A stretch of DNA of 64,000 nt from Aphelidium insulamus (taxonomy: Eukaryota; Aphelidiomycota; Aphelidea; Aphelidiaceae). Positions 1 through 51,979 of this stretch are shown piece after piece. Every line of letters starts with the position of its first letter. The stretch's first letter is position 1. Below the pieces are notes generated by a model. The model saw only the letters and a list, made by a program, of their open reading frames with translations, was not told the origin of the DNA and made no database searches. Where the stretch lies: assembly GCA_036784855.1 (NCBI GenBank), contig JAZDSV010000006.1, forward strand, positions 407,001-471,000. Direction: 5' to 3'. The position numbers and the translations under genes are program-made.

Positions 1-2604
1 GGGATCTCCCGTGGTAAATGTTCCATCTGGTACCGCGTATCCCGGTGCCCGCAGTGCGCACTGCTTTGCCGTGTCGTCGGCAAACAAAAACTACGTGCTT
101 TACGTGTACGGCGGATACGGCTTTGTCTCCAGTACGTCTTTTTGACAGTGTCGCCGAATGTGAATTCATGCATGTCCATCCAGCGGGTCCGAGTCCCATT
201 AAGGATTTCTGGACGTACAACACGGTGTTTCGACAGTGGACACTGCTGCCGGAAAATCCTTCCACTGTCCCGGCATACGGCGCGCTAGGTGTCGAGTCCG
301 CCACAACGTTTCCCGGTGCGCTGCGTCAAGGTGGCTGCCTCGTGAGCGGACAAAGTCAAAACCTGTACATGTTTGCCGGCATATCCACGGGAACAGGCAA
401 GTGACACCCATGTGATCCATCCACATGTGTACATTTACACGAATTTAACAATAATCTTTAGCATATTTCAATGATTTGTGGCGCTACAGTCCCGCAAGTG
501 GAATGTGGTCATGGCTGGGTGGCGGTGCAAACACAGGCACCCCTGCGCAAGGAGTCGCCAGTCAGCAAATCTATCCCAGCAAGAGGAAGCAGTTTGGCAT
601 GGCGGAGCACCCAACCACACACGATTTGTACATCTTTGGTGGCAGCGGCGAAAACACGTTATCTAGCACCGTCGGTACATATATATAACGTACAAATGTT
701 AAAAACTCATAACAAATCCGCGAAGGGGATTTGAATGATCTTTGGCGCTACAATCTGGCCACCGGCTCTTGGACTTGGTTGTATGGTCGTATTGACGCAA
801 GCGGTATTGCCAGCTCCTTTGTCACCAAAGGTGTGGAAGGCGGAGGGAATGCAATCGGCGGTGGTTCCCAACTCGGCATGACGTTTGGTGATAACGGTAT
901 CCTGTACTTGTTTGGTGGCATCTTTGGCAACGGTGCGTGCGCAACTGTTATATGTGTGGGGGTCTGAAGTAAATTAATGACCCGGTAACAGCCTACTCAA
1001 ACGCAATGTGGTCGTTTAACACTCAGTCCGTGCTGTGGACATGGCTGAGTGGCACTCAAGGCAATGTTCCGTCGCAGAAAAACTCTACCTCGGGTATTTT
1101 CAGTGCACAAAACATGCCCAGCACCCGATACTCTGTCGGTTTATGGCGTATTTATGGCACAGGATACTTCATTTCCTTTGGCGGAATAACATCCGGTGCT
1201 GCGGATATGAATGAGGTGTGGATGTACGACACCGCGACGGGATTTTGGTCATGGATTAGCGGTGATCATTCGGCGGGCGTATACGGAACGCTGGGCACTG
1301 CGTCCTCGTCTGCATATCCACCAGGACGACGAACAAGTGGCTGTCAGACATTGGCATTCGAGTCGAGCTTTCTTATCTATGGTGGGTTCACTGCTGGCGG
1401 GTCCTATTCTGATATGTGGCGCGTGGACTATCGTATTGCATCAGGTGCTACAGCTTCAGCTACCAGCATCGCCGTAGTGTCATCAAGCATGTTATTGGTC
1501 TCAAGTGTATTGGACGTCAGCAGTATCGAGTCACAGTTGCCTATCACATCGGAGAGTGACGTGATCACGGGCACTTTGTCCTTATACGATACAACGACCA
1601 GTACATATAGCTTGATTGTTCCGACAGCGTCTCAGCAGCAATCCGTGCAACCAGACCGTGTTTCACGATCGCTACAAAATCTCATAATTCTGGCCGTGGC
1701 AACGTTTCTCATATTGCTGGCGGTCGGATGGATATTTCTGTACGCGGCACGCATTAAATATGCAAGGCGCACCGCCGAGAAACTGGCAAATGGAGACCGT
1801 CAATTCGAGCGGGATGTGACTCAAAAAATTTCTCGTACTGCCGTATCTACCCAAAGCTCCGTCGTTTCCAATCCATTACGTCAACTACAGCACGACAATC
1901 CCTACTGCATGCCAGGTGGCGAGCTCGAGCTGTCACGTGCGGCGGAATTCCGCGACAGAAAATTGATTATGCGCACAGATGCATACGAGTGGCAGCAGTC
2001 ATCTGCATTCAGTGTGCCTCTGATTCAACAAGGTGGCATCGTCGTGCTCAAAACTCTGGTTGCAGACAGTGAATATGATGAATTTGAGCACGAGCTTAGT
2101 ATTTTAAACATGGTACTTCAATTTCGATCTCCATTCGTCACTCAGCTTATCGGTTGGAGTGCCAGCCCTGTCATGATGGTGCTGAAACAGTGTCAGTACG
2201 GCACACTACTGGAATGGTTACAGCGAGGCAATATCACCACGAAATCATACATGCTGCAGTTTGCACTCGACATTGCATGCGGTCTGCGTGTGCTTCATGC
2301 GAACAGTGTCGTTCATGCTGATCTATGCGCCGCCAATATCTGCGTGGACGCAGACCGCAGTGGACGGTTCATCTGCGTGATTTCCAACTTTTCGCATGCC
2401 CGTGTGTTTCTCGGCAACGGGCGATTGCTGGCTCCGCTTGGTGACTACAAGATTTCTGCATCACAGTACGTGGCACCAGAGTTGTTAGGCCGCCACAACG
2501 GTTGGTGCGACGATGCCCGCTTTGATGCATCTGTCCGCATCAATATTTTTGCATATGCGGTTATTACGCACGAGCTTATTTACAACAACATCTGTTGGCA
2601 ATGA
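1..2604 (+). CDS. K1: Kelch-repeat receptor-like transmembrane pseudokinase (5' partial)
   Basis: The gene enters the window already inside its ectodomain. Exons I read: 1-131, 184-396, 462-674, 726-932 and 992-2604, all joined in phase 1. Each upstream exon carries one Kelch-type repeat with DLWRY, TWLGG and YIFGG/YLFGG-like cores. A Ser/Thr-rich stalk is followed by one hydrophobic helix (about 1672-1746), a basic stop-transfer, a juxtamembrane NPLR motif and a kinase-like domain (about 1966-2592). Kinase landmarks: Lys in VVLK, Glu in FEHELS, HAD in place of HRD with its Asn kept, but NFS instead of DFG and no glycine-rich loop. The DxxxxG motif is also degraded (NIFAYA). I infer a surface receptor with a probably inactive kinase fold. 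The second intron uses a GC donor (GCAAGT). It is the nearest relative of the following gene K2. Ligand and biological role are unknown. Confidence 0.8.
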
Positions 2605-2785
2605 GAAGGCAAGCCGCATATGGGAGCATAGACTTGAAAATTTTACTTGTTTTCTAGCCACTGTGTGATATATACTGTCTGTAGCCAAAATTTAGCGTTT
2701 CTGCCAGCTGTGAGGACTCGAATTGTCGTGACTTAAACCACATCGTCGGGCTATTTATAGTCACGGGCAAAAATTAACAAAAAAT

Positions 2786-5515
2786 ATGGTTGCTTCAGCC
2801 GCGGTGGTATTGGCATTGACCATACTCCATGTTCCGGTACTGGTTAGCACACAATACGTCAATTCCACATATACCTGGATAGCAGGATCTTCCGCGTGGA
2901 ATGCTCAACGACCGAGTTCTGCCAGCGTGAATGTTCAATCTAGCACCGCCTATCCGGGCGCACGCAGTGCACACTGCTTCGCGGTGTCGTCGGCCAGTCA
3001 AAACTACGTGATATTCGTGTATGGCGGCTACGGATACGTGACAAGTATGTTACTCATATACTCTGCGCACAGTTGTTGTATTTCAACTGAAATATAGCGG
3101 GACCAAGTCCGCTCAAAGATTTTTGGACGTACGACATGGTGCTTAGACAGTGGACGCTTCTGCCAGAAAACCCAGTCAACACCCCATCATACGGCGCGAT
3201 GGGTGTCGAGTCCGCCACAACGTTTCCCGGTGCACTGCGTCAAAACGGCTGCCTTGTTAGCACTCTGAACCAAAATCTTTACATGTTTGGAGGATTGGCA
3301 ACCGCTGGAGGTAGTACATGTATACGTTAATGAGACAGCCGATTCTCATACACGTAGTAATCTACAACGACATGTGGCGATACAGTTCATCTAGTGGACA
3401 GTGGGCGTGGCTTGGTGGTGGAACGAGCACGGTAGCTCCGGTGCAGGGCACGGAAAGTCTTCAAACCTATCCGACAAAGAGAAAACAATTTGGATTTGTC
3501 GAGCATCCTATAACACGGGATATATATATATTTGGCGGCAACGGCGAAACTACAAAAGGACCGCCCGTCGGTATGCAATCAATTTGAAGCACTTCATCAT
3601 AAATTGAGCCATAGGTGATTTAAATGATCTCTGGCGCTTCAATGTGGCTACTGGCGGGTGGACGTGGCTGTATGGCAACATTGACATAAGTGGTGTGGCA
3701 TCCACTTTCAGCAGTAAAGGCGTTGAAGGTGGCGGCAATGCACTTGGAGGTGGCACTCAGTTCGGGATGGCGTTTGATGCGAACGGGCAGCTGTTTGTTT
3801 TTGGAGGACTCTACGGTAGCGGTAAGGATACTCATTCCTCAAATATTTCTCCATCCTTAAATGATCTTAGTCTACTCGAACTCTGTATGGTCATACAATC
3901 CTCAGTCGGGATTGTTTAAATGGATAAACGGAGGGCAAGGAACGGCGTTGTCCAAAAAGAATTCGGCACCTGGAGTATTTGCATCCAACAACAGCCCCAG
4001 CACCAGATATGCCTTGGGGATGTGGCGTATTGCCGGTACGAACTATTTTGTGGTGTATGGAGGGATCGGCAGTGACACGACGGATCTGAGCGAAGTGTGG
4101 CTATATGACAGTGCGGCTGGCATGTTTGCCTGGATCCGAGGCGATCAAGCCCCCGGCGCGTATGGTACAATGGGCTCGGTTTCCCAGTCATCGTTTCCAA
4201 CGGGGCGCAAAGCAATGTCTGGAGCCCCATTGGCCTACGGCACAACAGTATTGATGTACGGTGGGCAGACGACAGGTGGCACCATGGCGGACTTGTGGCA
4301 AATGGACTTTTCATTTGCCAGCGGCGTCAATTTGATTTGACAGCGATATCTGCCGCACCGGCAGTATCTGCAACATCTGCGGCGATGATATCGACTTCAG
4401 GACCAGCAAATTCGCTATCAACTTTTGATAGCAGGACAAATGCACCTTCTTTTTTGGTGAGCATTACAATAACCTCCATATCTGCGAGTGCCACTCCACT
4501 TGCCGCTCCGAATACTGCTTATCAGACTGCGGCAACGGCGCTCATCTCACAGTCGTTGCAGCAGCTCTTTGTATTGGCGGCCGTAGTCATAATTCTATTG
4601 CTGCTAACAGTGTTGCTGTTTGTATATGTAATTCGTCGTCGAGCGAGTCGGCCAGGCCGCAACAATGGTACGACGAGATCAAGCGCTGGAAAGGCCTCTT
4701 CCATTACGAATACTGCTGTATTGGTCAAGTCTGATCTCAAGCCTGGAGTTGCGCTGAGTCCTCTCCGCCAGATGCCTGACTTCAATGGTTACGAAATACC
4801 AGGTCGCCAAGTGCCACAGTCAAGCGATGAGGACTACCGCATAATCAAGCTGCTGAGTCGTACAGACACCAACGAGGTGTATGAAGCTGCGCCGCAAAGT
4901 TCTTTTCTAGCACAACATGGCACCACTGTACTCATCAAAGGATGCGTGGTGGAGATGAACAAGAACAGTTCCGGTAGCAAGAGCGCGGATGCCATGGAGC
5001 ACGAGCTGAGCATTATGAACATGCTACTCCGATGCCGATCTCCTTTCCTTGCCGAGTTGATCAGCTGGTCCGAGAGTCCGCTCATGATGGTGCTGAAACA
5101 GTGTCAGTACGGCACACTGCTGGAATGGTTACAGCGCGGCAATATCACTACAAAAGTATTCAAGCTCCACTTTGCACTCGACATTGCATGCGGTCTGCGT
5201 GTGCTGCACGGCAACCGAGTCGTGCATGGCGACCTGTGCCCCGCACATATTTACGTGGATGCAGATAGTAGTGGGCGGTTGATCTGCGTGATTTCCAACT
5301 TTTCACACGCACGTGTGTTTCTGAGTAACGGTCGCCTGCTGGCTCCACTGGGCGCCTACAAGATTGCCGCATCGCAGTTTGTGGCACCAGAGCTGGTGGC
5401 ACGCCAGAATCACTGGCTCAATGATGAGAGTCTAAAGTCATCTGCGCAGTCGGACATGTTTGCCTTGGGACAACTGATGTATGAACTGGTCGGTGGCACC
5501 ACTGGATGGTATTGA
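2786..5515 (+). CDS. K2: Kelch-repeat receptor-like pseudokinase, frameshifted copy
   Basis: The ATG at 2786 starts a hydrophobic signal peptide of about 22 residues. Exons: 2786-3044, 3098-3310, 3358-3570, 3615-3821 and 3871-5515, with the same phase-1 layout as K1. The Kelch frame of the last exon hits TGA at 4338-4340. The stalk, helix (about 4551-4625) and kinase-like domain (about 4840-5500) continue in another frame. The break coincides with a perfect 5-bp tandem duplication, TTTGA twice at 4331-4340; one copy would keep a single frame. As it stands the locus would give a soluble ectodomain with no membrane anchor, or is a young pseudogene, or is a sequencing error. An intron that restores frame (4276-4343) is arithmetically possible but would delete conserved residues. 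The kinase-like part has HGD, a His where the HRD-loop Asn should be, and NFS for DFG. The kinase segment around 5085-5150 is almost identical in DNA to K1 (2169-2235), suggesting recent exchange. Confidence 0.78.
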
Positions 5516-5618
5516 ATGCAGTTGTGCATGATGTGTTCATTTGCGAATAAATGTTGTGTTTTGCCTTCTACATACATACGATGACTGTACACTTTCAATC
5601 TATCAATCTATCTACTAC

Positions 5619-10764: not shown

Positions 10765-13700
10765 TCACGTGTGACTCTTGCTTAGCATGTTGTTTTTCAA
10801 GTCCAACTTGGACCCTTCGATGACCGCTTCGTGCTGCAACTCTTGATAGTCCTTCATTAGGGCAACAATCTGCTCGCCGTCGCGCGTCTCCAACACGTGT
10901 TTGGTCTGCTGTGACTCTGTTTCCACCACAATCATGATGCTGTCCTCTGCAGAAACAAAGGTGGACAGCTGTCGGTACTCGTACGAGAACACGGCGGTCT
11001 ATATAACAAAAATGAACAAGCATGCATGTTTAAATTATTTTTGTGCGCACCTTGGCCCCAGCCTTCATGATATGGATTCCATCCTGACCAACAGCCAACC
11101 AGCACTCGGATGGCAAATCACTAGAGTAGGATTGCTGCACGCAAAGTTAACGCGGAAAACCACGCTACAGTATTCAATCTGATCGTACCCGAACTTCGTG
11201 AACAGTGACACCGAAGAGCGGCCACGAGCGTATACGCTGCATGAAAAGACGGCGACAATCAGTGGCAGTCTTGCTTCGCAGAGACCCGTGCTCGGCGACA
11301 ATCATTTGCTTGATCTTTTCCGTGTGGAACGGTTTCGGCAACTTGACCTCGATGGCTTTTCTATAGCTATTGACACACAGTTAGCGTGAAAATGTTGAAA
11401 ATAATATCGTACTCAATGGTCTTTGAAGGTTGTGCATCGCCGTGCTCAATTTGGATGAGCAGTGCAAGCAAGTACAATGCATCGTCTTCTTCAACGGGAA
11501 TCCTTTGCATTGCCAGATCTTCGATCGCTTGCATGAGCGTAAATGCCTCCTCAAAGACGTTGTTGGATGGAACATTTACGTTCAAAAACAGACGCTTCTT
11601 GAACAGGAAGAGAAAGTTATCACGAGCGAATCCAGCTCGCTGGCTCATCAAATCCCACCGGCCCATAACTTCGCAAATCTTTTCCTTTGGTGCCATATAT
11701 CGATCTGTAATTTTGGAATTAGCAGTTTGCTTACGCTGATAAATCATGCCACATACGCATGTTGGCGGCGGTGTCGATGGCAAACAGAGCAAACCCGTCA
11801 ATCGTTTCCATCTGTAGACGAGACTTCATGATGTGGACAATATCATCGGCGTTGTTCCACGGGTCAAACATCAGTGCACGGAATTGGCCATCCGGAGTAT
11901 AAAATCGTGCGTGGACTTGCAACATTCGCTAATTTACATTGTTATCGATACGGTAATATAAACAAGTAAACATGGCACGTACCGACGTGAAGGATATTTC
12001 TTCTTGCGAAGGTGTGACAAGTCGCTGCTTCTCCGACATTTGAGTTTTTTGCAAAGTCTTGTAGCAGTACTTTGCAAACAAGGCTTCTTGTCGTCTTAGC
12101 GGATTAGGAGGCAGACGCGCGTCAATGACAGAATTTCTCTTAAGATGAGCGCGCATAAGTTCTAGAACTTCATGCTGATTTGGCTTCAGACATCCACAAG
12201 TTGTCGCCAGCACTCGCCAAGCATAAATCCGGGACAAACCGTCATCCACTACTTCAGGGCTGGTGTACTTTGCGAGTTGCAGATAAAGCTCGTCGCCGAT
12301 CAATTTCATATCGATAGTTTTTTGTATGATTGTCTGCGTGGGAACAGATATGTTGGCGGACAAAGCGGCATCCAGCTTCAGCGAACGTGCGGCAGTAAAC
12401 AACTCCAACAAGTTATTGTGAATCATGGCTATTCCGGCTTTGAAGTGAATCTGGTTGGGGCTCAGCGTCATTATCGGAAGCGTTATCGATTTCTGCGGTG
12501 TTAGACCACTCAAAGTGGAATTTGCATTCGTACCATGACAACGTTCCAGTCCAATTTGTAGGATCCACATTACTGCTGCTGCTGAGGCCGTTGCAGGCGG
12601 CCTCACTAGTGCCCCATTGGGCGTTGGTGGTGAAAACAGCTGCGCGAGTGCTGGAGCAGCGGCAAGCGACGCTGGGATAGCAATAAGTTTCTTCTTGAGC
12701 ACGGCCAATCGTGTTTTGTCAAGATCCTTGGCATAAATGAGCACCTCCGACTCGGGCACGTAGAGATCAACATCTTTTCTTCTATCAATTCCAATCTTGG
12801 GACTATACTCCTTCATCAGACCGGAAATATCCTCCACGAGCCGGTTCTGGAACTTGAAGACTTCTGCCTTATCATTTGGTCTACTGGCGGCCGACTTTCG
12901 AATCACGCTAATTGAGATGACGTCGCCATCAACTTCCCAGCTTTGAATCTCCATGTAGCTAAACGAGTCCACAATGGTCTTATTCTTTAACATCACATGC
13001 ACGCCACCAGCTGAAATGGCCAGAATTACATTTTCTGGATGTTGCCAAAATCCTTTGAACTGGATAGCGTATCGAGTTAATTTCGCCACGGAATAACTTA
13101 CACCTTACCTTGAGCGCAAACAATGTGGAACCATAGTACTTGAATTGCTTCAACGATTCCAAGTACATCAAGCGAGCTTGTACCGGGGTCTTGCCCTTCA
13201 GCTTCTGCTGCAGCTCGACAATGCCTTTAATCCATTGGTCGGGAGTCTGGTTGCCGTACAGACTTGCGGGTAGAAATGATTTAAGATCTGCAAATCGATC
13301 TTTCTGTGCCGCATCGTAGTCGCCATCAACTTGCGCTTTAATAGATGCGAACTGCAGGGCAATCTTGTCGTTCACCGGATAAACGTCATGCGCCACGTCG
13401 CTGCACGCTTGTGCATACAACAAATTGAATTCCACGGGGTCGACTGGAATTTCGTTGACATTGCGAAACACTCGCTTCTTCAGATATAGCTTCGAATCAG
13501 ACGTGTCGGACAATGCCGTCGGCTGACTTCCCCTAGCCTTCTTGGTACCAGTTGCATTTGCTGATTCGGCTGCTTTAGCCCAAAACGCAAGGATATCTGC
13601 AACGTATTCTGATCCTTTGATCACATAGTCTTCCCATGGCTCTTCGTGAACTTCGTAAAGCGCCCAGCCAGTGGTGTCCTTCAGATCAATCTTCGAGCCG

Positions 13701-16700
13701 ACTTCCTTCACAATGTCGTTGGCGGTAGTCGTTGGTGTGATGTGAACCGTCTTTACTCGACGATCCATCAAGTGCATTTGACAGTTCATTGGCGTCAGAT
13801 TCTTGATAGAAGTCATCTCTGATGGCGATGGTACCATCTTTCGTGAGCCACCAATGGTAAGCTTTCGTACCATTTGCTCGCTGTACTCAGCAACCTTTTT
13901 CAAGTTGTCGGGAAGAGTACGGCTATTTTGAGACAACAAATGCAGCAAATACTTTGCAAATAACTTGCTCGGCGGGAAAGTGCAGCAAGTCAGTGACATA
14001 AGCGACCAGCAAGCAGATTGGATCTCGTTCCAATTCTTGGGCGGTGTTGGTCCCGGCTCAGTCTGGCGGCAGATTTGAACATAGAGCTCATCACGCAGGT
14101 CCGGGTTCTTGATGCCCACATCCAAGAAGGCCCGGTAGTTGGCTACTAGTTCTTCTGGCTTCTTGGTTCCAGGTTCAATAATTTTGTTGATGGTTTTCCA
14201 CGCTTCCGTAGCCAGCATGGCAGACTTCTCTGATCCGGGCGGAAGTTTGATCATCGCAGTTGGAAGTGGCTGCTTGCTGTAGAAGAGCATATCGCCCAAA
14301 TCGACAGTTTGCTTCTGTTTTCGAAGAGATTTGAATGTTCCTCCTTTGACGACGACGTGCTGCTCAAAGAATTTGGTTGCAAATGCAGACAACGACAAGT
14401 CCTCCTTCTCCTCCTTCTCTTTCCGCTCTTCAGACTCGATAGCCATCTTCTTTGCGAGTGGATTTGCACGCATAGCTTTTGGCTTCTCAACAGCTGGCGC
14501 CATATCTTGATTGGAAAGGGCAACACCAGCACCGGCGGCAGCGGCCTTTGAAGGAGCTACCTTGGGCTTATCTGGCACTGAGTTGATGTCCACGTTGAAA
14601 ATGTCATCAAACTCGTTCGCGACCATCGGCGTGGGAACCAAAGGCGCCGATTTCTTTGGCGCCCCATCAAAGTCATCCAAGAAGGCAAACAAATTGTCGA
14701 GCTTGTCGCCGTCGCCGCCAGTTTTCTCCTGCTACAAATTGTTAGCAAAATCGTGTCACAAATGTCTTACCTTGGCGTAAACTTTTGCCGCATTCATCGC
14801 CAATTCTTGTTGGGCTTGAGTATTGTCGGCCTTGCTTGCCTTTTCTTCCAGCTCCAATTCGCGTAACCGTTGCGCCGCCTTGGCTTTTTCCGCAGCATCC
14901 ATAGTGGCTTGCTCGGCCTGCAGAGCTGCCTTCTCAGCCTCCAGTCGCGCTCTTCGCTCGGCCTCTTCGGCTTCTTTTTTCTCAGCCTTGAGTTGTTTCA
15001 AGTAATCGCGAGCAAACCAGCCGCGAATATACGCCTGTGCTTTGACGGTGCATTTCTTCAGATGTTTGTACCGCTCGCGGTAGACAAACATCTTCATATA
15101 CTTTTGCAGGTATTGCGCGGACTGACGGACACGCAGGTACTTGCGCCGACATATGTGGGCACGAACGACTTTTTGCACGGTAATGACATATTTGCCGCGG
15201 ATAACGTCGTTCTTGTCCGTCAGAGCGTTTACCTAATAGTTAAATAGCTATTCCTTAAAAATCGTAGCCACTTACAGCCTGCGCCTTCATAAAGACCTTG
15301 GTGCGTCCTAATTGCCAAAACGTTTTGTCAACTCCTGCATTTTTCATTATAGCAGTCGCTACCGTTTTTTCATCTCCGGTTGCTGACGAATATATGAGTA
15401 AAAATATAGCTAATAATATTAAAATTTTAGCACACATACTTCCATTAGTCAGAAAGCGATATCGATGGTTGAACGCTTCGTACGGCAAGCGTGTGGGAAA
15501 TCCAAGCTTACGAATTCTTATAGTTTCCAGCATTCCGGAATACCTCAATTGAGCTAGCGATATAAGATTTGAAATAAAACGGCACAATAAACGATTGTTG
15601 TGTACCAATTACAAGGTTGTCATCAAACACAAACGCCTTCTTCTCCCAATTGGGCTTGATGCATCGGACATAGTGCGGTGTGGTCGCGCCCAGAGTTGTT
15701 ACGAGGCTTACAAGTTGGTTCTACGTAAATAGTTACAACCAAGAGAGAGTATGGCTGACAAACCCCACCTTAAAATTCGATCCTGCTGTGGTGGCGGCTT
15801 TCTTCTGGCCACTAGCAGGTGCAGCTGCATCGGCTCGTCTGAAAAGTTTTTGCACAAGTGGATACTGTTGATAGTGTGAACAAGGTCCTCAATAATGTAA
15901 TATCACACACCTTGGAAGCGCTGAATAGCTCATAAATCTCGTCCTGAATTGCATCCCTATTCTTGTCCAGAAATCCAACCACTTGGTACGTGACCTCGCC
16001 AGCGTAATGCTTGATACCGAAGCAACCCTTCTGCGTTCGAGGCTTCACGTAGTACTCATTCTTTGCATTTGAATCATGCAACTTTGAAACGAATGTCTCG
16101 TCAGTGCCTTTTGGAACGCGGCATTCTTCATCGAGCATGGCTAACACGCCGACTTTGGCCTTCAAACGAGGTTAAAACTTCATAAAGTACTCGATCTTGG
16201 TACATACTTCAATCAAGTCTAAGCATAGCTGGTTGTCCTTGAACTCCACACTATCATACGATATCGCCTCGCGGGCATACTGTACAGTGAACGCTGGTTG
16301 ACATGAAAGCGTTATATAACATACTTCCTCTTGTTCCAGTTTGAAAATAAATTGATTAAAGAATTGCTGCAACTTTTCATTCGTGTAGTTGATGCATAGC
16401 TGTTCGAAGCTGTTGATTTCAAACAGTTCAAATCCAAAAATGTCTAGTACGCCAATAAAGTTGGCAGCCGTTTCTTTGGTAGCTGTACTACTGTTGATAA
16501 ACTCGATAAGGTAATTAAAAACTTTGTCGTAGATTGTCTTGGCAATCGAGTCTCGATTATCATTGGCCTTAGAAGTAAGGAGCGATTGTAGAAAATGCAT
16601 AATGTGTAACCTGATCTTTCTTCAAAGGAACCAGTGTTGACTCATTGCGCACTGTCAGGCGACGAAAACATAGAGCACTCTTTAATTTTTCGGCATCCAC

Positions 16701-17837
16701 TTGCATCAGCTCTGCAATGGTTTTGACCGTCTCCATGTGCTCCGGTGGGACACTGACACCTTCCTTTGATTCTTGAAACAAAAATTCGACATTTCCAAGC
16801 CTCAATATGGCAGACATCGCTTTAAAGAGCACTTCGAGATCATCTCGTGACATCTTCATCACTGTCAGAGCCAGTTTCAGATCCTCAAAGTGCTTCTTGT
16901 CATTCACTCCGGGGATCTCCAGGCAACCGCTCTGGTTGAGATAGTAATACGAGTCGAAACCATCTAACAGCATGTACTTTTTCTTTTCCTCGGCACTCGC
17001 GCCGGCAACCATTTCGTAGAATACGTGGTAGTTGCGCTCCGATTTGGCTTGACGGACCACCCGCGACTTTTCCAACAGGTAATTGACGATATTGGCACCG
17101 ATAATTTGGCACTTGCTATCGAAAAGCACCTGGACAAACTTGCCAAATCGACTAGAGTTGTTATTGCGCACAGTTTTGGCGTTTCCTGTCAGATCGATAT
17201 TAATTCTAAATTACTGGTTCAAAACTCACCGAAACTCTCCAACACCGTGTTGGCCTCAAGAATCTGCTGTTCGATCCACGATTTCGAGTCATCGCCCTGA
17301 GATGATGCCACGGTCAAGTACTGCAGAATGACCTTTGTGGACTCGGTTTTGCCGGCACCGGACTCGCCACTAATTATGACGGCTTGATTCTGCTTAAATT
17401 GGCGACAGTTGGATATGGCCGCCTCGCTGATGGAAAAGATGTGCGGTGGCTTGTCTGCCATTCTCGTGCCAATATGTGCGCGGATATTCTCCTGCCATCG
17501 GTTAGATATAGTCGCTAGATACTGACACTTGAAGCAAGTAACACACCTTGTCATAGATGGTCAGCTGTTTGTACGGGTTCAGCCCGACCAAAATGGAGCC
17601 AGTGTATGTCTGCGCGGGTCATGAATAAGCACGGGACGGCACTGCACTGAACGTTAACCAACGTAAATGAGCTGCTGCGCGTAACGGGCGGCAAGATTTT
17701 TCAAGATTGAAGCTTCGGTGAGCTCTGTTAAAGCAGTCATGTCCTCCACATGATCAGTGGGATCCCCATCTGTAAGTGCTGTGTGAGAACAAGCATGCAG
17801 CGCACAGCAGTGACGTAGGCGCACCTTGACTGGCCAT
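10765..17837 (-). CDS. MyTH4-FERM myosin (class VII/XXII-like, two MyTH4-FERM units)
   Basis: Largest gene of the window, roughly 2,000 residues over many short exons. The start ATG is at 17837 in a 13-nt first exon. Order: motor head with P-loop GESGAGKT (about 17345), switch [11 protein letters not shown], switch II DIFGFE and actin-binding parts down to about 15300; IQ neck and a charged Glu/Arg/Lys-rich helix (14756-15250); an acidic linker; MyTH4 then FERM (12980-14650); a second MyTH4 (about 12000-12700); a second FERM ending in a PH-like lobe (10765-11930). Such motors carry membrane or adhesion cargo along actin in filopodia or microvilli. No SH3 domain is visible between the first FERM and second MyTH4, where metazoan myosin VII has one; that space (12590-12680) is a low-complexity Ala/Pro stretch. 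The intron between FERM lobes of the first unit lies near 13060-13110. It shares a short divergent promoter with the Myb-like gene at 18069. Confidence 0.9.
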
Positions 17838-23277: not shown

Positions 23278-25768
<2,491 letters not shown>

Positions 25769-29246: not shown

Positions 29247-31962
29247 ATGTTGCGTATACTGCTTGCAGCAATCGCGTTCCAGTTGGCGCTCGGCCAATAT
29301 GCCAACTCCAGCTACACGTGGTTAAGTGGAACCAGTGTTATTAATGCCCAGCGACAAGGCGGCGCTGTGGGTGTACCATCTTCATCGGCGTACCCGGGCT
29401 CGCGCTCAGCCCACTGTCTGGCAGTTACCTCTGCCGATCAAAACTATCAAGTCTACATCTACGGCGGCTACGGATTCGTCACAGGCAACAACTAATTCAT
29501 GTCGAGCCTAATGTCACTGACTGGTGCGCATAGGTGCCGTTTCTCTGCTGAAAGATTTTTGGCGATACGACGTGCAAACCTCCACGTGGACCCTCCTTCC
29601 CGAGAACCCCAGCACGTCTCCTGCGTTCGGCAGCGTCGGCGTAGAGAGTCCGACGACCTTTCCCGGAATTTTTCGTTACGGCGGCTGCCGCATCAACGGG
29701 CTAGACCAACAGTTGTATATGTTTGGCGGCGTGTCCACTTCCACAGGTATCGGGCTATAAGTTACAGTATTCCATTGACACTGCAGTGCTAAGCAATGAT
29801 ATGTGGCGCTACAATCCAAGCACTGGCAACTGGGCCTGGTTGGGTGGTGGTGCGAGCATAGATGTGCCGGTAAAAGGTGTGGACGGCCTTCGGATTTTTC
29901 CATCGCGACGGAAGCTGTTTGGATTTGCCGAACACCCACAAACATATGACATCTACTTGCTGGGCGGCACCGGAGAGAACGTTGGTGCCAACGTTGCTGT
30001 CGGTAAGTCTTGCATAGGCTTGTGGTTCGCATTGGCTAACCTCACAGGGGATTTGAATGACTTGTGGCGCTTCAACGTGACCACGCTGACGTGGACATGG
30101 TTGTACGGGCGAATAGACGCCACGGGAATCGCATCAACGTTTGGTACGCGAGGATCAGAAAGCGGCGGAAATGCTATTGGCGCACTGAATACCCCAGGCA
30201 TGGCATTCAACACAAATGGACGGCTGTACGTTTTCGGCGGCACATACAGCAACAGTACGATATAGTGTGACATGGGATATATGTATTCTCACTTCATGTA
30301 GCTTTCTCAAACCTGTTGTGGTCGTATAATGTACAGACCGGACTGTGGACATGGATTAATGGCGTGTTTGGAACGGCTACAAGTAGACGGGCAAGCACAT
30401 CCGCTGCATTCAGCAGTACATACACACCCGGCTCACGGGAACCAGCGGGATTCTGGTGCATTTCTGGCACAAACTACCTCATGACCTATGGTGGAATTGG
30501 AATACTATCCGGTTCTACCGGGTCAGACATTAACGAAGTTTGGCTTTTGGATACCACAACCAATTACTGGGCCTGGATAAGCGGTGATAATCAGTCGCCT
30601 GCCGTTTACGGCACAATGGGCACAGCATCGCCAAACAATAACCCACAGATTCGCCGCACAACATCTGGCGCATCGTTGGCGTTTGAAACGGCGATTATCA
30701 TGTTTGGCGGTTTTACAACTGGCGGCCAGCTGGCCGATCTGTGGCGCGCTGATCTTGGGTTTTCTGGCGGTGTGAACTTGCCAGTGGCTCCTCGTGCGTC
30801 TTCATCGGCTGACAGTAGCAGTACATTGTCAGTTGCCACCACTTCTGTCACGCTTTCAAGCATTCCGACGATGACCGTTGCTTCGTTGCCTTCATCAGCT
30901 ACCATTGTTTCGCCACGTTCCTCAAGCGCCAACACCATTATTCAGCCGACTGGTAAAGCTCAGGATCAATCGTCGCAACTTGTTTCCTCGTCACTGCAAC
31001 AGCTTCTCATCGTGGCCGTGGTGTCTATAGTACTTTTAGTTCTAACATTGGCACTGTGTGTATACACCATGCGCAATAAGGTCAAGTGGAGGATGCGACG
31101 CAAACCCTCGGCCGCCGCAAAACCTCTGGTACCGAACCCAACTCAGATGTCATTGACAGTCGCATCAGCCCGTTCCGGTACACGCACGATGCCTAAGAAT
31201 CCACTTCGACTCATGACGGACTTTAACGGCTTTGATATGCCCAGCAAGGAGTCGATTCTGTCCAGTGAGTCTGATTTCCGACTGTCAAAACTGCTCAAGC
31301 GGACTGGCGCGTATGAACTGAGTGAAGCTGCGGCGCTCAGTCCAATATTATCTCAGCATGGGAACACGGTTTTAGTCAAGCAGATTGTGTTGGAGATGAG
31401 TGGACAGGCCAGTAACAAAAACACGGACGCATTTGAGCACGAGTTGAGCGTGCTGAATATGCTCAGTCGACAGCGATCGCCATTCATATCGGAACTGCTC
31501 GGCTGGCTGGACGACCCTCTGGCAATTGTCACTCGCTGTTGCCAGTATGGTTCCCTGATTGACTGGCTGAGCCGAGGCAACCTGACCACCAAAGCAATCA
31601 AAATGCAATTCGCTATGGACATTTGCTGCGCCGTCAGCGTTCTCCACACCAACAGCATTGTGCACTGCGATCTACAGGCGGTCAACATTTACGTGGACGT
31701 CACGGATAATGGTGGGCGGTTTGTATGCGTGCTGGCAAACTTTGGCTGTGCCCGTGTGTTTCTCAGTAATGGCCGGCTACTTGCACCATTGAGCGTGCAT
31801 CGCGTGGACCGGACCCAGTATGTTGCACCGGAAATTGTAGCGCGGAACAACTACCTGGACACCGAAGTCCACTTTAAAACTGCTTCGCGGTATGACGTGT
31901 ACTCGGTGGGCCAGCTGCTGCACGAGCTGCTGATTAATAATAATGCTCGATACACTGCGTAG
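29247..31962 (+). CDS. K3: Kelch-repeat receptor-like pseudokinase
   Basis: Intact member of the family. Exons: 29247-29484, 29534-29746, 29787-30002, 30048-30254 and 30302-31962, all phase 1. The signal peptide is short (MLRILLAAIAFQLALG). Intron 1 has a GC donor (GCAACA), because no GT is available that keeps the paralogous frame. The stalk (about 30780-30980) is Ser/Thr-rich, the helix lies at about 30984-31065 and the kinase-like domain at about 31280-31950. Landmarks: VLVKQIV Lys, FEHELS Glu, HCDLQAVN catalytic-loop match with Asp and Asn kept, NFG instead of DFG, VAPE kept, DVYSVG kept. Of the six, K3 and K4 look most like a normal kinase outside the DFG change. Its middle (about 29793-30601) is nearly identical to K4 including two introns. 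Confidence 0.85.
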
Positions 31963-32308
31963 TGTTCAAACATGACAATTCATCGATTTCAATAGACTTG
32001 TTTTGGAATAGAGATTCCGCAGCATTAATCGCATTTAGTCAATGTTTTACTAGAGACCGTCAATTGAATCGTTTCTGAGCGCCGTAAAGCTGCTCACCAC
32101 GCTGCAAGATGAATGTATGATGAAGGAGAAGAAGCAAAGCTGTTCATCTCCAACTTCTTCAAAGGCGATGTATACTTAGCGTACCGATAATTAGGCTGGC
32201 GCGCACAAGCCATATACGTACAAGGTGCAACAAATAAAGTCGCTGATATCGCTCGTAGCGCATTCTAATAATAGCCATCGATGGTCTGTAGTCTGTATTT
32301 GAGACAAA
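31963..32308. other. Intergenic region between K3 and K4
   Basis: 346 bp separating the tandem copies; it holds the K3 3' end and the K4 promoter. No repeat or coding pattern was seen. Confidence 0.4.
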
Positions 32309-35028
32309 ATGAACATGAAGTCACTGCTACTGTTGGCGGCGACAGGCATTCAACTAGTGCTTGCGCATTACGCCAACTCTACGTACACGTGGATCAGTGG
32401 CTCCAGTGTTGTTAACGCGCCACGATCTGGTGTAGCCGTGGGCGTGCCTTCTACTTCCGCGTATCCCGGAGCACGCTATTCCCACTGTCTGGCTGTAACG
32501 TCGGCAGACAGAAACTATCAAGCCTACATCTACGGCGGCTATGGATACGTCACTGGTATGATGTTGCACCTGCTGGCTTTGATTTTTAGTGACATGGACA
32601 AGCAGTTACCGGGTCTCAATTAAAAGATTTTTGGCGCTACGATGTGCAAGCAGCCACGTGGACTATGCTTCCCGAAAACCCGAGCACGCTTCCCACTTTC
32701 GGAAACGCTGGCGAGGAAAGCGCGTCAACCTTTCCTGGTGCTCTCCGTTCAGGCGGTTGCCTCATAAATGGGCTTGACCAACAGTTGTACATGTTTGGCG
32801 GCCTGTTCTCTTCCACAGGTAGCTACTAGGAATGGTTAAAAATATTTGACACTATAGTCCTCAACAATGATATGTGGCGCTACAATCCAAACACTGGCAA
32901 CTGGGCCTGGTTGGGTGGTGGTGCGAGCATAGATGTGCCGGTAAAAGGTGTGGATGGCCTTCGCATTTATCCGTCGCGACGGAAGATGTTTGGATTTGCC
33001 GAACACCCACAAACATATGACATCTACTTGCTGGGCGGCACCGGAGAGAACGTTGGTGCCAATGTTGCTGTCGGTAAGTCTTGCATAGGCTTGTGGTTCG
33101 CATTAGCTTACCTCACAGGTGATTTGAATGACTTGTGGCGCTTCAACGTGACCACGATGACATGGACATGGTTGTACGGGCGAATCGATGCCACGGGAAT
33201 TGCATCAACGTTTGGTACGCGAGGATCAGAAAGCGGCGGAAATGCTATTGGCGCACTGAATACCCCAGGCATGGCATTCAACACAAACGGACGGCTGTAC
33301 GTTTTCGGCGGCACATACAGCAACAGTACGATATAGTGTGACATGGGATATATGTATTCTCACTTCATGTAGCTTTCTCAAACCTGTTGTGGTCGTATAA
33401 TGTACAGACCGGACTGTGGACATGGATTAATGGCGTGTTTGGAACGGCTACAAATAAACGGGCTAGCACATCCGCTGCATTCAGCAGTACATACACACCC
33501 GGCTCACGGGAACCAGCCGGATTCTGGTGCATTTCAGGCACAAACTACCTCATGACCTATGGTGGACTTGGAATCTTGTCTGGCTCTACGGGGTCAGACA
33601 TTAACGAAGTCTGGCTTTTGGACACCACGACCCAATTACTGGGCCTGGATAAGCGGTGATAATCAGTCGCCTGGAGTTTATGGGACAAAAGGAACTGCAT
33701 CGGCCTCCAACTATCCCCAAGCTCGGCGCAGTACAGCAGGCGCTGCTTTGACGTTTGATACGACGATTGTTATGCATGGCGGTTTTACAACAGGCGGTTC
33801 GTTGGCGGATATGTGGCGTGCTGACCTTGGGTTTATTGGTGGTGTAAATCTGCCCCAGCCTTTGCTAACGGCCACAACTTCCGATAGCACTTTATCAACA
33901 ATAGGTAGCGCGACATCCGAGCTACTGGTTAGCAGTACGGTAGAGTCGGATACGAACGAGCTTTCTTCATCCGCTACCACTCCAGTTGCGTCTTCTGCTA
34001 GTACAAATTCGTTGATTTCGGCGACTGGAGATTCACTGCATGACACAGCGAAGCTTTTCTCGAGCTCTCTACAACAACTGGTGATTGTGACCGTGGTTGC
34101 TATAGTACTTCTGGTTGTAACCGTGGCACTGCACGTGCACATGATGCGCAGCGTGGCCAAGCGAAGGATGAAAGCCACCGCTGAAGCTAAACCAATCGCA
34201 CGGAAGTCTATTCAGATGACGGTTGTCTCGACTGCTTCGGGAACTCGATCAGTGCCCAAAAATCCACTACGACTCCTGACAGACTTCAACGGCTACACTA
34301 TGCCCAACAAAGAATTCATATTGTCGAGCAGTAGCGATTTCCGAGTCTCAACACTGCTCATGCGGACCGGCAAGTATGATCTGAGTGAAGCTGCGGCGAT
34401 CAGTCCAATACTATCGCAGTACGGGAACACCGTACTGGTCAAGCAGATTGTTGTGGAGATGAGTGGTCATGCCAGCAGCAAGAACACGGACGCATTTGAG
34501 CACGAGCTCAGTGTGTTGAATATGCTCAGTCGACAACGATCGCCATTCATTTCGGAACTACTCGGCTGGCTGGACGACCCTCTGACAATTGTCACTCGCT
34601 GTTGCCAGTATGGTTCTCTAGTTGACTGGCTGAGTCGAGGCAATTTGACCACCAAGGCGATCAAATTGCAATTCGCTATGGACATTTGCTGCGCCGTCAA
34701 TGTTCTCCACTTCAACGGCATTGTGCACTGCGATCTGCAGGCGGCCAACATTTACGTGGACGTCACGGATAATGGTGGGCGGTTTGTGTGCGTGCTGGCA
34801 AACTTTGGCTGTGCCCGAGTGTTCCTGAGTAATGGTCGACTGCTGGCCCCTCTTGATGTTTGTCGCGTGGACCGGACACAATACGTGGCACCGGAAGTTG
34901 TAGCTCGAAACAATTACCTGGACACCGAAGTATATTTTACAGTAGCCTCGCGGTATGACCTGTATTCAGTGGGTCAGCTAGTGTACGAATTTCTGATTAA
35001 TAACTTGCTGAATTATGAAGCTCAGTGA
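32309..35028 (+). CDS. K4: Kelch-repeat receptor-like pseudokinase, frameshifted copy
   Basis: Exons: 32309-32555, 32606-32818, 32858-33073, 33119-33325 and 33373-35028. The start MNMKSLLLLAATG is a signal peptide. Compared with K3, one extra C in the run at 33631-33633 moves the frame inside the last Kelch repeat: the upstream frame ends at TGA about 33657-33659, while the downstream frame is open from before the insertion to 35028. No splice pair nearby removes the change neatly. Downstream parts are well kept: stalk, helix (about 34063-34140), NPLRLLTDFNGY juxtamembrane motif, VLVKQIV, FEHELS, HCDLQAAN, NFG and VAPE. So the break is recent, polymorphic or a base-calling error. Exons 3-5 are nearly identical to K3, the signal exon and the stalk are not. 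Confidence 0.78.
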
Positions 35029-38461: not shown

Positions 38462-41232
38462 TTACCATGCATAATCGTTGTTGAGCACCTCATGCATCAC
38501 TATTCCCAACGCATAAATGTCCATCCGCGTAGCAGCGTTGAACTTTTCGTTGTAGTCCAGAAAATGGTGACGAGCCAGGGTTTCTGGTGGAACATATTGT
38601 GATGGCGGGGCTTTAAGTACCCCAAGCGGAGAGAGTAGCCTTCCATTGCTCAGGAATACTCGAGCACTGGCAAAATTGGTCAGCACACAAATGAACCGTC
38701 CCGAGGCATCCACATCGACATGAATATTGGCAGTCCGAATGTCCGAGTGCGCTACATTGTTGCTGTGCAGCACGTGCACTGCGCGGCTCAAGTCCTGTGC
38801 AAATAGTACCCTGTACAACTTCACGGTGATACTGTGGTGCTTGAGCCAATTCGAAAGCGGTCCGTGCTGGCAGCGCTTCAGCACGGCTGTTAGCGGATCG
38901 TCACTCCAGCCCAGCAGTTCCACAATGAACGGCGACCGGTGACGTAGCAACATGTTCAGCACGCTGAGTTCGTGTTCGAACAAGTAGCGATGTTTGCTCT
39001 CATTGCCGTTAACGACTACCACGGTCTTGACGTGAACAATGCTGCCAGACTGTATTACTGGTGCACTAATGGAAGACGCTTCATGTATGTCACACGAGGA
39101 GGACTTCTCGAGTAACTTTCCCACACTATAGTCCTTCCCAGCCACTAGGTTCATCGTTGCGCCTGGCATGTCAAACCCGTTATAGTCTGGCATGTATCGC
39201 AGCGGGTTGTTGTATGACACGGTGTTGACCGTCTTTGTGCCGGATTTCGAAGTCGCTGTAGCGACAGTCATGGGGAAGAGCGGAACCTCGGAATTTGTGA
39301 CATGTTTCCGTTTTTGTTTTCTCGTCACCGGCTTGCTGCGCAGTGCATATATAAACACACCCGTGGTGACAACGATCAAAATTACGACAGCAGCAGCCAC
39401 AAAGAGCAGACGTTGAAGGGGTCGCGTGATAAATTCGTTTGTAACCGCCATACTTGGCGTAGTTGGAACTGCATTGTTGATGAATGTTGTGGTTGCAGGC
39501 GGCTTGTCGGCTGTGCTTGAAAGAATGTCTGATGTGGGACTCGCAACTGTTGAGGTACTGGTAGTAGAGACAATGCCTGACTGAATGACTGTTGTACTAA
39601 TTGCATTTGCAGACGTAATTGTCGAACGCGAACTGCTTCTGAGACTAGAAGTGCTGCTAGTGAACGCTGACGAAGTAGTATTATTATCATCAGCGGTAAA
39701 CCCGAAATCGAATCGCCACATGTCGGCAAAGTAGTTCTGTGCTGTGAACCCGCCAAACGTGATGATGGAAGTGTCAAATATCAGCGGCGCTCCAGATGAA
39801 AGCCGACGAGCAGGTAAAATAGTTGCGTTAGACGGCGAGCCGCGAGTGCCATAGACGCCAGACGATAATGACTGATCGCCGCTTATCCAAGCAAAGGTGT
39901 TGGCTGTGGTATTGTACAGCCACACTTCGTTCAAGTCGCCAGATGTGGTGGTATTTAGAAAATATCCCGTTCCAGCGATAAGGGCCACATATGATGTGCC
40001 TGGTACGGGAAACATCGAGACCATAGATCTTCCACCTGGAAGGTACTGTGCATCAAATACACCGGGCTGGGCGCTTTTTTTGTTGGTGGCCCCATTGAGC
40101 GCTCCACTTATCCATGTCCAGTTGCCAGACTGAGGATTGTAAGTCCACAAAATGTTGGAAGATCCTGTACGGTGAATTATATTAATGACAACATGGAATG
40201 ACAAGAACGTACCGCTGTTATAACTCCCGCCAAAGAGGTACAGTAGCCCGTTGGAGTGGAACGTCATGCTGAGTAGCGATACTGCACCAATAATGTTTCC
40301 CGAGCTTTCAACGCCCTTGGATCCCAGAACGCTGACAACTTCGGCAATGTCAACTCTACCATAGAGCCACGTCCAGGCACCGGAAGTCACATTGAACTTC
40401 CAGAGGTCGTTCAAATCGCCTGATATTGCATCATTGAAAGGATGTGCACTTCACCTATCACCCGTACCTACTGTGCCATTGGAAGTAGTTTCGCCATTTC
40501 CGCCAAAAATATATATATCCCGCGTTTGTGGATTTTCGGCAAATCCAAACAGCTTTCGCTTGCCGGGATAGATCTGCTTGCTCTCCACATTTCGGACTGG
40601 AGTGATTGAGTTAACACCGCCTCCCAGCCATGCCCACAGACCACTCGAAGTATTATAACGCCACATATCATTTGCCACGGCTAGCCATCATAAGCCCAAT
40701 TTACTTAACGCATAGGTATAAGTCACCTGTGGTGCCAAGACCGAGAAATAGGTATAATCGTTGATCACGACCGCTTATGACGCATCCAGCTTGACGCAGC
40801 ACACCCGGAAAGACTGACACAGACTCTGAACCCAGCGGGCCGTAAGCCGGAATAGTTGCTGGATTCTCGACGAGCTGCGTCCATTCCGTGGTCTGAACGT
40901 TGTATCGCCAAAAGTCTTTTAGAGGGCCGGGACCAGCTGGAATATAAGTTAAAGCAGAGCATTGTGTAGTACTACTTGCTTGTGGAGTAGCCAGTGCCGC
41001 CGTAAATGTACACTTGATAGTTGCGATCAGCCGACGTGACAGCCAAGCAGTTTGAACTTCTTCCGCCTGGATAGGCGGTGGTGGACGGCACACCCACCGC
41101 AGCTGGCGACTGTCGCAGCGCGCTCAGTGTGCTCGAACCCGCGATCCAGGTCAGTGTGGAGTTGCGGTACTGTGCCAGCACCACCTGGGACGTGCATAAC
41201 ACTGCCAGCACGACACGCAGTGGCTCCTTCAT
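38462..41232 (-). CDS. K5: Kelch-repeat receptor-like pseudokinase (reverse strand)
   Basis: Start ATG at 41232 (MKEPLRVVLAVLC signal peptide). Exons: 41232-40980, 40936 to about 40728, about 40676 to 40470, about 40423 to 40213, and 40164-38462. Intron 1 has a GC donor (GCAAGT). The intron 40165-40212 is 48 nt, a multiple of three without a stop, so it reads through in the raw frame but is removed by comparison with the other copies. Helix at about 39345-39420, kinase-like part about 38475-39130. Landmarks: HVKTVVV Lys, FEHELS Glu, HSDIRTAN catalytic-loop match, NFA instead of DFG, PPE instead of APE, DIYALG kept. It is the only copy on the minus strand and the most divergent in the kinase tail after K6. 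Confidence 0.82.
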
Positions 41233-44086: not shown

Positions 44087-44088
<2 letters not shown>

Positions 44089-44094
44089 ATCATC

Positions 44095-46412: not shown

Positions 46413-46495
46413 ATTGGAATTATCATAGTTAAAAATAGTTGTATGTATGTATTATAGTAGTAGTCTCTGTGGCACTGGCATCTCCCCTCACAGCA

Positions 46496-47536: not shown

Positions 47537-47930
47537 TGTAACTATATATGTATTCAGTGCTTAGTTGAACGCACGATGAACGATTTTAGTGTTTTACCGT
47601 TCTTCGTTCTTCACTGTTCTACTGCAACTCACCGCCTGCTTGTATATTAATAATCAGACCACTTGAATTGCCCACTCCATAAAAGAGATGCAGTCTAAGA
47701 GCGTCTGTGGTGCATGCTTTCACTATAACTATGCACGTGTGATATCAAAGTCGGTAATGGAATTGATGTCCATCCATTCAGCTATTTCCATGTAAATATA
47801 CGCGCAAGCCCCTTCTAGCAGTCTAGTAGGCACTTGATGCACCTATGGGATATTCGGAAACATGTGCATTTGGCACTATGGGACAACCCTGCTGCGATTA
47901 ATAGTCAGCTAATATTTACAATCTAATCAA

Positions 47931-47965
<35 letters not shown>

Positions 47966-48006
47966 ATCATTCTAATCAATCTACTGTCTACATAAAAGCA
48001 CAACAA
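47537..48006. other. Divergent intergenic region with (TA)n tract
   Basis: 470 bp between C1QBP (minus) and THUMPD1 (plus). It contains a (TA)n microsatellite at about 47938-47964, 40 bp before the THUMPD1 start. No coding pattern or RNA gene seen. Confidence 0.5.
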
Positions 48007-49128: not shown

Positions 49129-49265
49129 GTTGTATAATTGCCAACAATAAATGTAAAAGGTTGATACAGCATATGTAATAATCCGCACGATCTTTTGGCC
49201 ACCGTTTGTTTGCTATGTACCAAGACACTAAAATAGCGGACTTGAGCTACCTATCATAAACAGCG

Positions 49266-51979
49266 ATGCGCGACCTCCTGATTGTCGCGGTGCTGCTCCT
49301 GCTTCTCCCGCTCGCCGAATGTATCTTATTGATAAACGCCACCTTCACATGGATATCGGGAACCCAGACGTTTAATGGTGTCGGTGTATCCGGTGTCGCG
49401 GGCGTTCCATCGACTGCCGTGCGCCCAGGAGCTCGCCACACCCACTGTTCCGCCGTACTATCGCCAACCACAACTGTCAACAGCTATCAAGTATACGTGT
49501 ATGGTGGGCAGCGCCAGTCGTCAAGTACGTCTTATGCAGTTTTCGGTGGTGTTACAACAGAATGATGAGCTCGCCAGATTTCTTGAAGGATTTTTGGCGA
49601 TACAACATGGCCACCACCGAGTGGACAATGTTTGCCGAGAACCCGGTGGGCACGCCGGCATACGGTAGCCTGGGCGTGGAAAGCAACTCGACCTTTCCGG
49701 GCGTGTTACGACAAGCTGCGTGCATCGCCAGCGACTTGAACGGGCAATATTATATCTTTGGGGGTCTCTATACTGCCGGCGGTCAGCATTCAATGACATA
49801 CTTGTATTCAGCTACACTGATGTACCTATTAGTCTTTTACAACGACATGTGGCGCTATAATCCCGTGAGTGGACGTTGGGCGTGGCTCGGCGGAGGGAAT
49901 AGCACGTCGGTACCCGTGATGGGAGTGGAGAGCTCATCTATCTACCCCACAAAGAGACGACAAGTGGCCGCGGCCCAACACCCAACCACGTATCACTTTT
50001 ACATCATGGGTGGAAGTGGAGTCTCGACTGGTGGTGCAGCAGGTAGTATTATATATGGAGGTGGTTGTTCTGGGCTGATGAGCGCTAATCAGGTGATCTG
50101 AACGACATCTGGAGATTCAATATTGCCACCAATGCATGGACATGGGTCAGCGGGCAGATTGACATGGTTGCTGTGCCCACCAACACTACCATAATTGGCG
50201 TTGAGGGTAATGGAAATGCTCTGGGATCTTTGGCAAGGCACGGTATGGTTGTTCACCCCAATGGGTACATGTACGTATTTGGCGGTGGATACAACAACTG
50301 TAAGCAGATGTATAATTTTGCGCTTCTGTTAACTGTTCCATTCAACAGTGTATTCCAACCTGTTGTGGCGCTACAATATTACATCTGGGTTGTGGACTTG
50401 GCTGGCTGGTCAGATTGTTCCAGCTGCAGACATCAAAGGCATCACGTCTGGCGATTTTGATCCTACGTACACTCCGGGATCACGAGAGCCTTGTGGACTC
50501 TCGTTCATTTCAGGGACACGATATGTAATACTCTTTGGCGGCGTGGGATATACTGCCAGCACGGTTGCCCCCATTGACAGCAATCAATTGTGGCTCTTTG
50601 ACACGGACATCAACCAGTGGTCTTGGATTGCTGGAAATCAGAGTGCAGGAATTTATGGTACGCTGGGTACGAGATCTTCAGTCAATTACCCGCCGGCGCA
50701 CTCACGCACCAAACTGCTCCCACTGCTTTACAACTCATCCGTGGTATTTTTCGGAGGTGGAATAGCCTCTAGCATGTACGACGATATGTGGCAAATGGAT
50801 TTTGACTTGGGCGGAAACTACACGATTCCGCCGATTCTCTCCCTCCTGCCCACTACCACATCCGTCAATAGTTTGTCACAACTGCTCGCCGCGTCTTCTA
50901 ATATTTCATTAGTCAGCTCCACCGCCAGTACGACAACTGCAACCACTGAATTATCATCTTCGGCTGTTGCAGCCACTGCCAACACAGGCTTGCCATTCGT
51001 ACCCACAGACAATCTCGCAATAATGTCTCCTGATCTAGTTCCAACATCGTTGCAAAAATTGGTCATTGTGTCCGCGATTGTTGCTATGTTGCTGAGTGTG
51101 ACTCTTGGTCTTATGGTTCACGGGCTGCGGATGCGAACAATGCAGAAAAAACTCGTCGGCAAGGCTCCCGCCTTCCTAACCACGAAACTCGAGCCAAAAG
51201 CAACAACACTGTCGCTTACGCCCATAACTCGAAACAACCCTCTGCGCCACCTATCGGACTTCAATGGATACGACATGCCATCAGCAAACTTCAAAGTATC
51301 TTCAGGAACTGATTTCCGCCTAGCCCACTGCACCGAAGAACAGCAACCAGGGCAGCATTTTGAGTTGCATGAAGCATCAGTGCTTCGGCCAAAGTTAGCC
51401 AAGCACGGTCAAACTGTTATTGTCAAGAAGATTATTGGCGACTCGAACAGGGCCAATGATTACTTTGAGCACGAACTGAGTGTCCTGAACATGGTTCAGA
51501 AGTATCGTTCATCATTCGTTACGGAACTGCTTGGCTACTGCTTTGAGCCCATGATGATGATTGTTACGAAACGTTATCCGCAAGGCTCGCTCCGCAACTG
51601 GCTTCATTACCGCAGCGTCACCGTTAAATCACTCAAGCTATTTTTTGCGATGGATCTTAGTTACGCAGTACAAGCGCTGCACGGTGCAAAGGTTGTGCAC
51701 TCGGACATACAGCCGGCAAACATTGACATTGACGTGTACGAGAACGGTCGCCAGTGCTGTGTGCTGACCAATTTCGGCAATGCACGAGTCTTTCTTAATA
51801 ACGGCCGCCTGCTGGCACCGATTACTCCGCGTCATCTGATAATTTCCTCATATTTGGCGCCAGAGATTTTTTCGAGTCAGCAATGCCTAGAGAGTTTCAA
51901 GAACGCGATTAAAATCGATGTTTATGCAATCGGCATAATAATTCACGATTTGTTGGCCAACACGACCCCAGACGAATAA
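49266..51979 (+). CDS. K6: Kelch-repeat receptor-like pseudokinase
   Basis: Start at 49266 with a strongly hydrophobic signal peptide. Exons are approximately 49266-49524, 49570-49780, 49840-50042, 50095-50300 and 50350-51979; the first junction is unclear because the expected phase-1 join is not obvious there. The Kelch repeats show NDMWRYNPVSGRWAWLGG, DLNDIWRFN and LLWRYNITSGLWTWL. Helix about 51052-51120, juxtamembrane NPLRHLSDFNGYDMP, kinase-like part about 51313-51960. Landmarks: VIVKKII Lys, FEHELS Glu, HSDIQPAN catalytic-loop match, NFG for DFG, LAPE, DVYAIG. The segment before the Lys has an extra EEQQPGQ insert. It is separated from K5 by seven unrelated genes. Confidence 0.82.

Follow-up and report, generated by a model that had tools for sequence, protein, structure and literature searches.

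Six Kelch-ectodomain pseudokinase genes as probable members of the kinase-dead branch of a large receptor-kinase family truncated after helix alphaF

The window studied here is a stretch of 64,000 nucleotides of one contig (C129:407001-471000), taken from a genome of 18.0 Mb in 169 contigs. It contains six genes, K1-K6, in which Kelch repeats stand in front of a membrane helix and a tail that resembles a kinase. What kind of receptor would such genes encode, and do they form a family of their own? On the sequence evidence, and with a probability of roughly 0.68, we conclude that K1-K6 belong to the kinase-dead branch of a large receptor-kinase family, lineage-specific and single-pass, whose kinase is truncated after helix alphaF, in what is probably an aphelid or a close holomycotan relative.

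According to our splice models, all six genes follow a common plan. Exon 1 encodes a hydrophobic leader and the first Kelch strand; one intron lies within each of blades 1-4, at a position that is constant across the copies; and the last long exon encodes the remainder of blade 4, blades 5-6, a Ser/Thr stalk, the membrane helix and the kinase-like tail. The introns in these models measure 39-65 nucleotides (nt). K1, K3, K4 and K6 are open throughout, with lengths of 836-861 amino acids (aa), and the frame is broken in K2 (in the stalk, near 4340) and in K5 (in blade 5, near 33630), in the latter case by a single additional C inside a C run. These two frameshifts reflect either sequencing error or decay. 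The initial annotation had described this layout, from leader through Kelch repeats, Ser/Thr stalk and single helix to kinase-like tail, in each of the six genes; we recover it, at the same positions, along with a Kelch ectodomain on a single-pass membrane protein. On a genomic reading, Kelch and tail also belong to one gene as had been proposed: blades 5-6 and the tail share a single frame in four of the six. The genes are listed below, each followed by its juxtamembrane segment and truncated pseudokinase (so called by motif).

K1: 1 to 2604, plus strand; exons ..131, 184-396, 462-674, 726-932, 992-2604; 836 aa; exon 1 (plus strand) starts 134 nt upstream of the window
K1 juxtamembrane segment and truncated pseudokinase: 1729-2601, plus strand
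K2: 2786 to 5515, plus strand; exons 2786-3044, 3098-3310, 3358-3570, 3615-3821, 3871-5515
K2 juxtamembrane segment and truncated pseudokinase: 4640-5512, plus strand
K3: 38462 to 41232, minus strand; exons 41232-40980, 40936-40727, 40680-40468, 40419-40213, 40164-38462; 861 aa
K3 juxtamembrane segment and truncated pseudokinase: 39340-38465, minus strand
K4: 29247 to 31962, plus strand; exons 29247-29484, 29534-29746, 29787-30002, 30048-30254, 30302-31962; 844 aa
K4 juxtamembrane segment and truncated pseudokinase: 31087-31959, plus strand
K4-K5 intergenic gap: 31963 to 32308, plus strand; 346 nt from the K4 stop to the K5 start, in which a missing C-lobe exon would barely fit
K5: 32309 to 35028, plus strand; exons 32309-32555, 32606-32818, 32858-33073, 33119-33325, 33373-35028
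K5 juxtamembrane segment and truncated pseudokinase: 34153-35025, plus strand
K6: 49266 to 51979, plus strand; exons 49266-49524, 49578-49781, 49833-50042, 50093-50299, 50349-51979; 836 aa
K6 juxtamembrane segment and truncated pseudokinase: 51104-51976, plus strand

By motif, the ectodomain of K1-K6 is a putative six-blade Kelch propeller. Kelch repeats score above cut-off in profile searches of the K4 and K6 ectodomains, that of K4 contains six GG motifs, and by inspection the K4 ring appears to be closed by the N-terminal strand. In the predicted structure of a database relative, P0081, the Kelch part is poor (predicted local distance difference test of 30-74 per ten-residue block), and the 50 matches listed in a structure comparison with this model are all kinases. 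The Kelch repeat motif is common to the K genes, to propellers of the KLHDC2/Attractin/LZTR1 type and to bacterial Kelch proteins; unlike in those proteins, the K-gene propeller is predicted to be extracellular, and it is borne on a stalk and fused to a membrane kinase.

The tails of all six genes exceed the PF00069 and PF07714 cut-offs, and the K4 tail is predicted to fold as a two-lobe kinase. The kinase fold suggested by the initial annotation is thus upheld, and the alternative of a non-kinase tail is not what we find. The best sequence matches of the tail are TYK2, ULK3, EGFR and IRAK4, with B-Raf also among them. With the tyrosine kinase-like and tyrosine kinases (TKL/TK; B-Raf, IRAK4, KIT and FGFR2 are among its best matches by sequence or by fold) the family has in common the N-lobe, helix C, the catalytic loop, the APE region, helix F and the overall fold; unlike them, it is without helices G, H and I, and K1-K6 are also without the DFG Asp and the Gly-rich loop. 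Ahead of the kinase, most of 26 aligned tails carry a juxtamembrane motif, which is NPLRxMxDFNGYDMP-like in the K members and NNTEFAMPGFLQ-like in members with intact catalytic motifs.

How widespread is this tail? We searched the genome with the last exon of K4, which gave 86 matching stretches, and with a second member, which gave 78, and merged all 86 rows with those 41 of the 78 rows that reach the kinase. The result is a set of at least 67 separate loci with the kinase, spread over 26 contigs; ten lie on the window's own contig, and one (C106:75374) is a partial match only; four further loci beyond the 67 also matched, on C138, on C150 (twice) and at C86:396647. One candidate for a full-length member of the family, C91:36400-37092, was rejected, as its sequence reads as that of a complete Ser/Thr kinase outside the family.

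In all 43 loci that we could read as closed open reading frames (ORFs), the frame ends 13-30 residues (median 21) past the Asp that starts helix alphaF, and thus helices G-I are missing; the kinase stops, in every read member, at about three quarters of the usual domain. It could be supposed instead that the domains are complete, and that a short intron after alphaF leads to a small downstream exon, encoding helices G-I, which reading frames miss. The introns here are indeed short, some of their donors are GC, and reading K4 and K2 through their stops gains a few bits. However, the stops lie 18-25 residues past the alphaF Asp in 40 of 43 loci, for which P is ~6e-17 under run-on into random sequence (with the range chosen post hoc and the loci treated as independent). 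A shared splice donor at the ORF ends was sought among the 43 loci and none was found; the DNA similarity of K4 and K5 stops ~20 nt ahead of the stop codon, no similarity between them was found downstream of it, and the gap that separates them is only 346 nt. Nor did an alphaF-to-alphaI profile detect helices G-I in the 900 nt downstream of the 43 loci, where its best score was 13.4 bits, versus best scores of 10.6-13.9 in 20 shuffles. This profile was trained on mostly bacterial kinases (41 of 50 weaker database matches gave a usable segment), and in a positive control on ten sampled training kinases nine scored 75-139 bits and one -0.2. Elsewhere in the genome, at least 10 kinase matches (of 143 rows) stay in one open frame as far as positions 239-254 of the 258-position model, so that both model and assembly are able to show a complete C-lobe. 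Finally, the five strongest of 55 database matches (P0079-P0083, 32-50% identity) end at roughly this point too, and among the remaining 50 (E 1e-9 or weaker) are many bacterial kinases whose C-lobe is complete. A hidden C-lobe exon is, in our judgement, very improbable.

A kinase that ends after alphaF, and that in K1-K6 has lost DFG, departs from the intact catalytic domain of a metazoan-type receptor tyrosine kinase. Reduced C-lobes are known from RIO and other atypical kinases, which like this family are missing the distal C-lobe helices; unlike them, the family retains an APE-type motif and its members are predicted membrane receptors. A search for SH2 domains gave no match, but the controls gave none either, and it is therefore uninformative.

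Are the tails of K1-K6 dead? In all six, the DFG Asp is replaced by Asn and the Gly-rich loop is gone, and by motif we class them as pseudokinases, in agreement with the initial annotation. Loss of the DFG Asp and of the Gly-rich loop is usually inactivating, with exceptions. One such exception would be an atypical kinase that catalyses with NFG, and the tails do keep the VAIK-type Lys (6/6), the HxD Asp (6/6) and the catalytic-loop Asn (5/6); given the two losses, which are found in every copy, we regard residual catalysis of this kind as unlikely. Across the genome, the motif table shows that Lys, HxD Asp, Asn and DFG Asp are all kept in 24 of the 43 read members, as well as in P0079-P0083, and that the DFG Asp and the Gly-rich pattern are lost in the other 19, which include K1-K6; by 'active' we mean intact motifs. 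In a maximum-likelihood tree, rooted at the midpoint only, a branch with support 100/99 sets the 19 dead members apart. Among these 19, K1-K6 do not group as a clade, but are intermixed with members from C94, C64, C106 and elsewhere on C129. What had been described as a lineage-specific surface-receptor system of six genes therefore stands as a receptor expansion, and not as a self-contained six-gene family, with at least 67 loci and with intact catalytic motifs in 24 of the 43 read.

The dead tails are under purifying selection: among nine pairs of pseudokinase tails, dN/dS (the ratio of nonsynonymous to synonymous divergence) is 0.15-0.28 in eight, and the ninth, K4/K6, is saturated. In the blade exons dN/dS is 0.06-0.23 (one pair saturated), and in the stalk 0.37-0.41. 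These values bear on the suggestion that the six genes are pseudogenes in decay, or copies of active receptors that sequencing errors have damaged. In its favour are the frameshifts of K2 and K5, and the fact that two more copies, at C129:473-475 kb and at C129:518-520 kb, also match in two frames; yet four of the six genes are fully open, the constraint extends over the dead tails even past the K5 frameshift, with the stalk alone looser, and the K5 indel falls in a C run. We find it improbable that decay accounts for the set. As for exchange between neighbouring copies, exons 3-4 of K4 (29787-30254, plus strand) are nearly identical to exons 3-4 of K5 (32858-33325, plus strand), with a dS of 0.107, whereas exons 1-2 have a dS of 0.97-1.77 and the kinase part one of 0.72. 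This contrast suggests gene conversion, and exons 3-4 are likely a conversion tract.

Kinase state and ectodomain can be compared across the family. Among the 19 kinase-dead members, 15 have Kelch and four are too short in the read frame to classify; in K2, the Kelch sits on its other exons, outside the read frame. Of the 24 intact-motif members of this genome, 20 are Cys-rich, three have Kelch and one is undecided, and four of the five database relatives P0079-P0083 have Kelch. By Pfam, the Cys repeats are Ephrin_rec_like (three members scanned), and WD40 repeats are found in P0083. Ectodomains thus appear, from these sequences, to be swapped among the kinases: Kelch occurs on active-looking or dead ones, Ephrin-receptor-like Cys repeats on active-looking ones, and WD40 in P0083. 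There are also Kelch genes of another kind, since contig C91 has 12 Kelch stretches with no kinase match inside 1.5 kb. The two that we read finish with a mucin-like, acidic stalk followed by a membrane helix and a short, similar tail that lacks a kinase. In these C91 Kelch genes (L073-L076) the stalks are long, and the short tail bears an RRSSF motif and ends in acidic residues.

How might such a family work? A secreted six-blade Kelch propeller would be displayed on a variable Ser/Thr stalk, above a cytoplasmic kinase fold of TKL/TK-like type, cut off after helix alphaF. Kelch and Cys-rich heads would read external ligands; intact-motif members would signal at the membrane by phosphorylating one another or partner proteins, with the usual alphaG docking surface missing; Kelch pseudokinase members would be ligand-binding co-receptors that assist the active ones allosterically or as scaffolds; and the short-tailed Kelch members without a kinase could be further partners or substrates. 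Glycan or cell recognition, which the initial annotation had tentatively proposed, may be the function of the system. HER3 serves HER2 in such a co-receptor role, and pairs of the HER2/HER3 type resemble the present case in that one receptor family has active, or active-looking, and kinase-dead members; unlike ErbB, this family has its own ectodomains and truncation. More tentatively, at what we would call odds of one against two, a major surface-receptor system may be built on kinases without helices G, H and I, the intact-motif members being active in that form, either alone or completed in trans. It would amount to a minimal receptor kinase whose arms are active, dead or kinase-less, and whose propeller and Cys-rich ectodomains can be exchanged. 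Helices G-I normally stabilise the kinase C-lobe and help to dock substrates. Their loss in intact-motif and dead members alike raises the question of whether a kinase can signal without them, which these natural proteins would allow to be tested. The family is also a case, probably near the base of Fungi, in which one kind of tail carries various ectodomains (Kelch, Ephrin-receptor-like, WD40) and a receptor set has active, dead and kinase-less members.

Several points weigh against the kinase-dead-branch reading of K1-K6. Splice sites were modelled without RNA and picked by agreement between copies, some of them not top-scoring, and the chosen models include GC-AG introns (K1 intron 2, K3 intron 1 and K4 intron 1); for K3 intron 1, a GT donor scores higher than the chosen GC, but disrupts the blade. 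The ORFs read cover 43 of the 67 loci, and the ectodomain classes are simple motif and Cys counts. Given the frameshifts in two of the six window copies, some may be pseudogenes. Translating K4 and K2 past their stop codons carries the PF07714 match to positions 248-249, ~6-8 bits above the proteins alone, which may reflect a decayed C-lobe remnant; because K5 shares nothing there, and because no alphaG-I signal is found downstream, we take the gain as chance. Lastly, the partnership of dead Kelch receptors with active ones, though probable, is something we infer.

In which lineage does this family occur? The initial annotation had looked to unicellular holozoans, a placement made doubtful by the genome size, by the GC content (~52% within the window), by division-II chitin-synthase-like loci and by a reported difference in the receptor-like kinases of aphelids, which point to Holomycota and probably to an aphelid. 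Chitin_synth_2 matches 20 pieces of the genome (best E 8e-235), and such loci fit Holomycota but are not decisive, as Chitin_synth_2 also matches in four bacterial controls. A MyTH4-FERM myosin likewise suggests an aphelid host; pieces resembling one such gene lie at 11929-17210 of the window, on the minus strand. A database search with PRMT5 gave 59 matches at 28-39% identity, the best being Rhizophlyctis rosea (35%). Mikhailov et al. are said to have described, in 2022 (Curr Biol 32:4607), a large receptor-like kinase expansion in aphelids, uncharacteristic of fungi; the family reported here is likewise large and in a small-genome holomycotan lineage. That aphelids differ in receptor-like kinases is stated in PMC10608142, which cites that paper, and no mention of kinase, kelch or receptor was found in PMC11767097. 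In a literature search over titles and the starts of abstracts, with most subscription literature outside it, we found no Kelch-ectodomain kinase and no receptor kinase truncated after alphaF. For aphelids, an expansion of receptor kinases has already been reported, and the family-wide truncation is the new part.

Three repeat regions occur elsewhere in the window. At 56460-56811 there is a purine-rich repeat of 81-83 nt in four tandem copies. The repeats at 23371-23573 and 25370-25566 would encode Gly-rich sequence on the minus strand, and the second of these falls inside a DEAD-box helicase frame, in its N-terminal portion.

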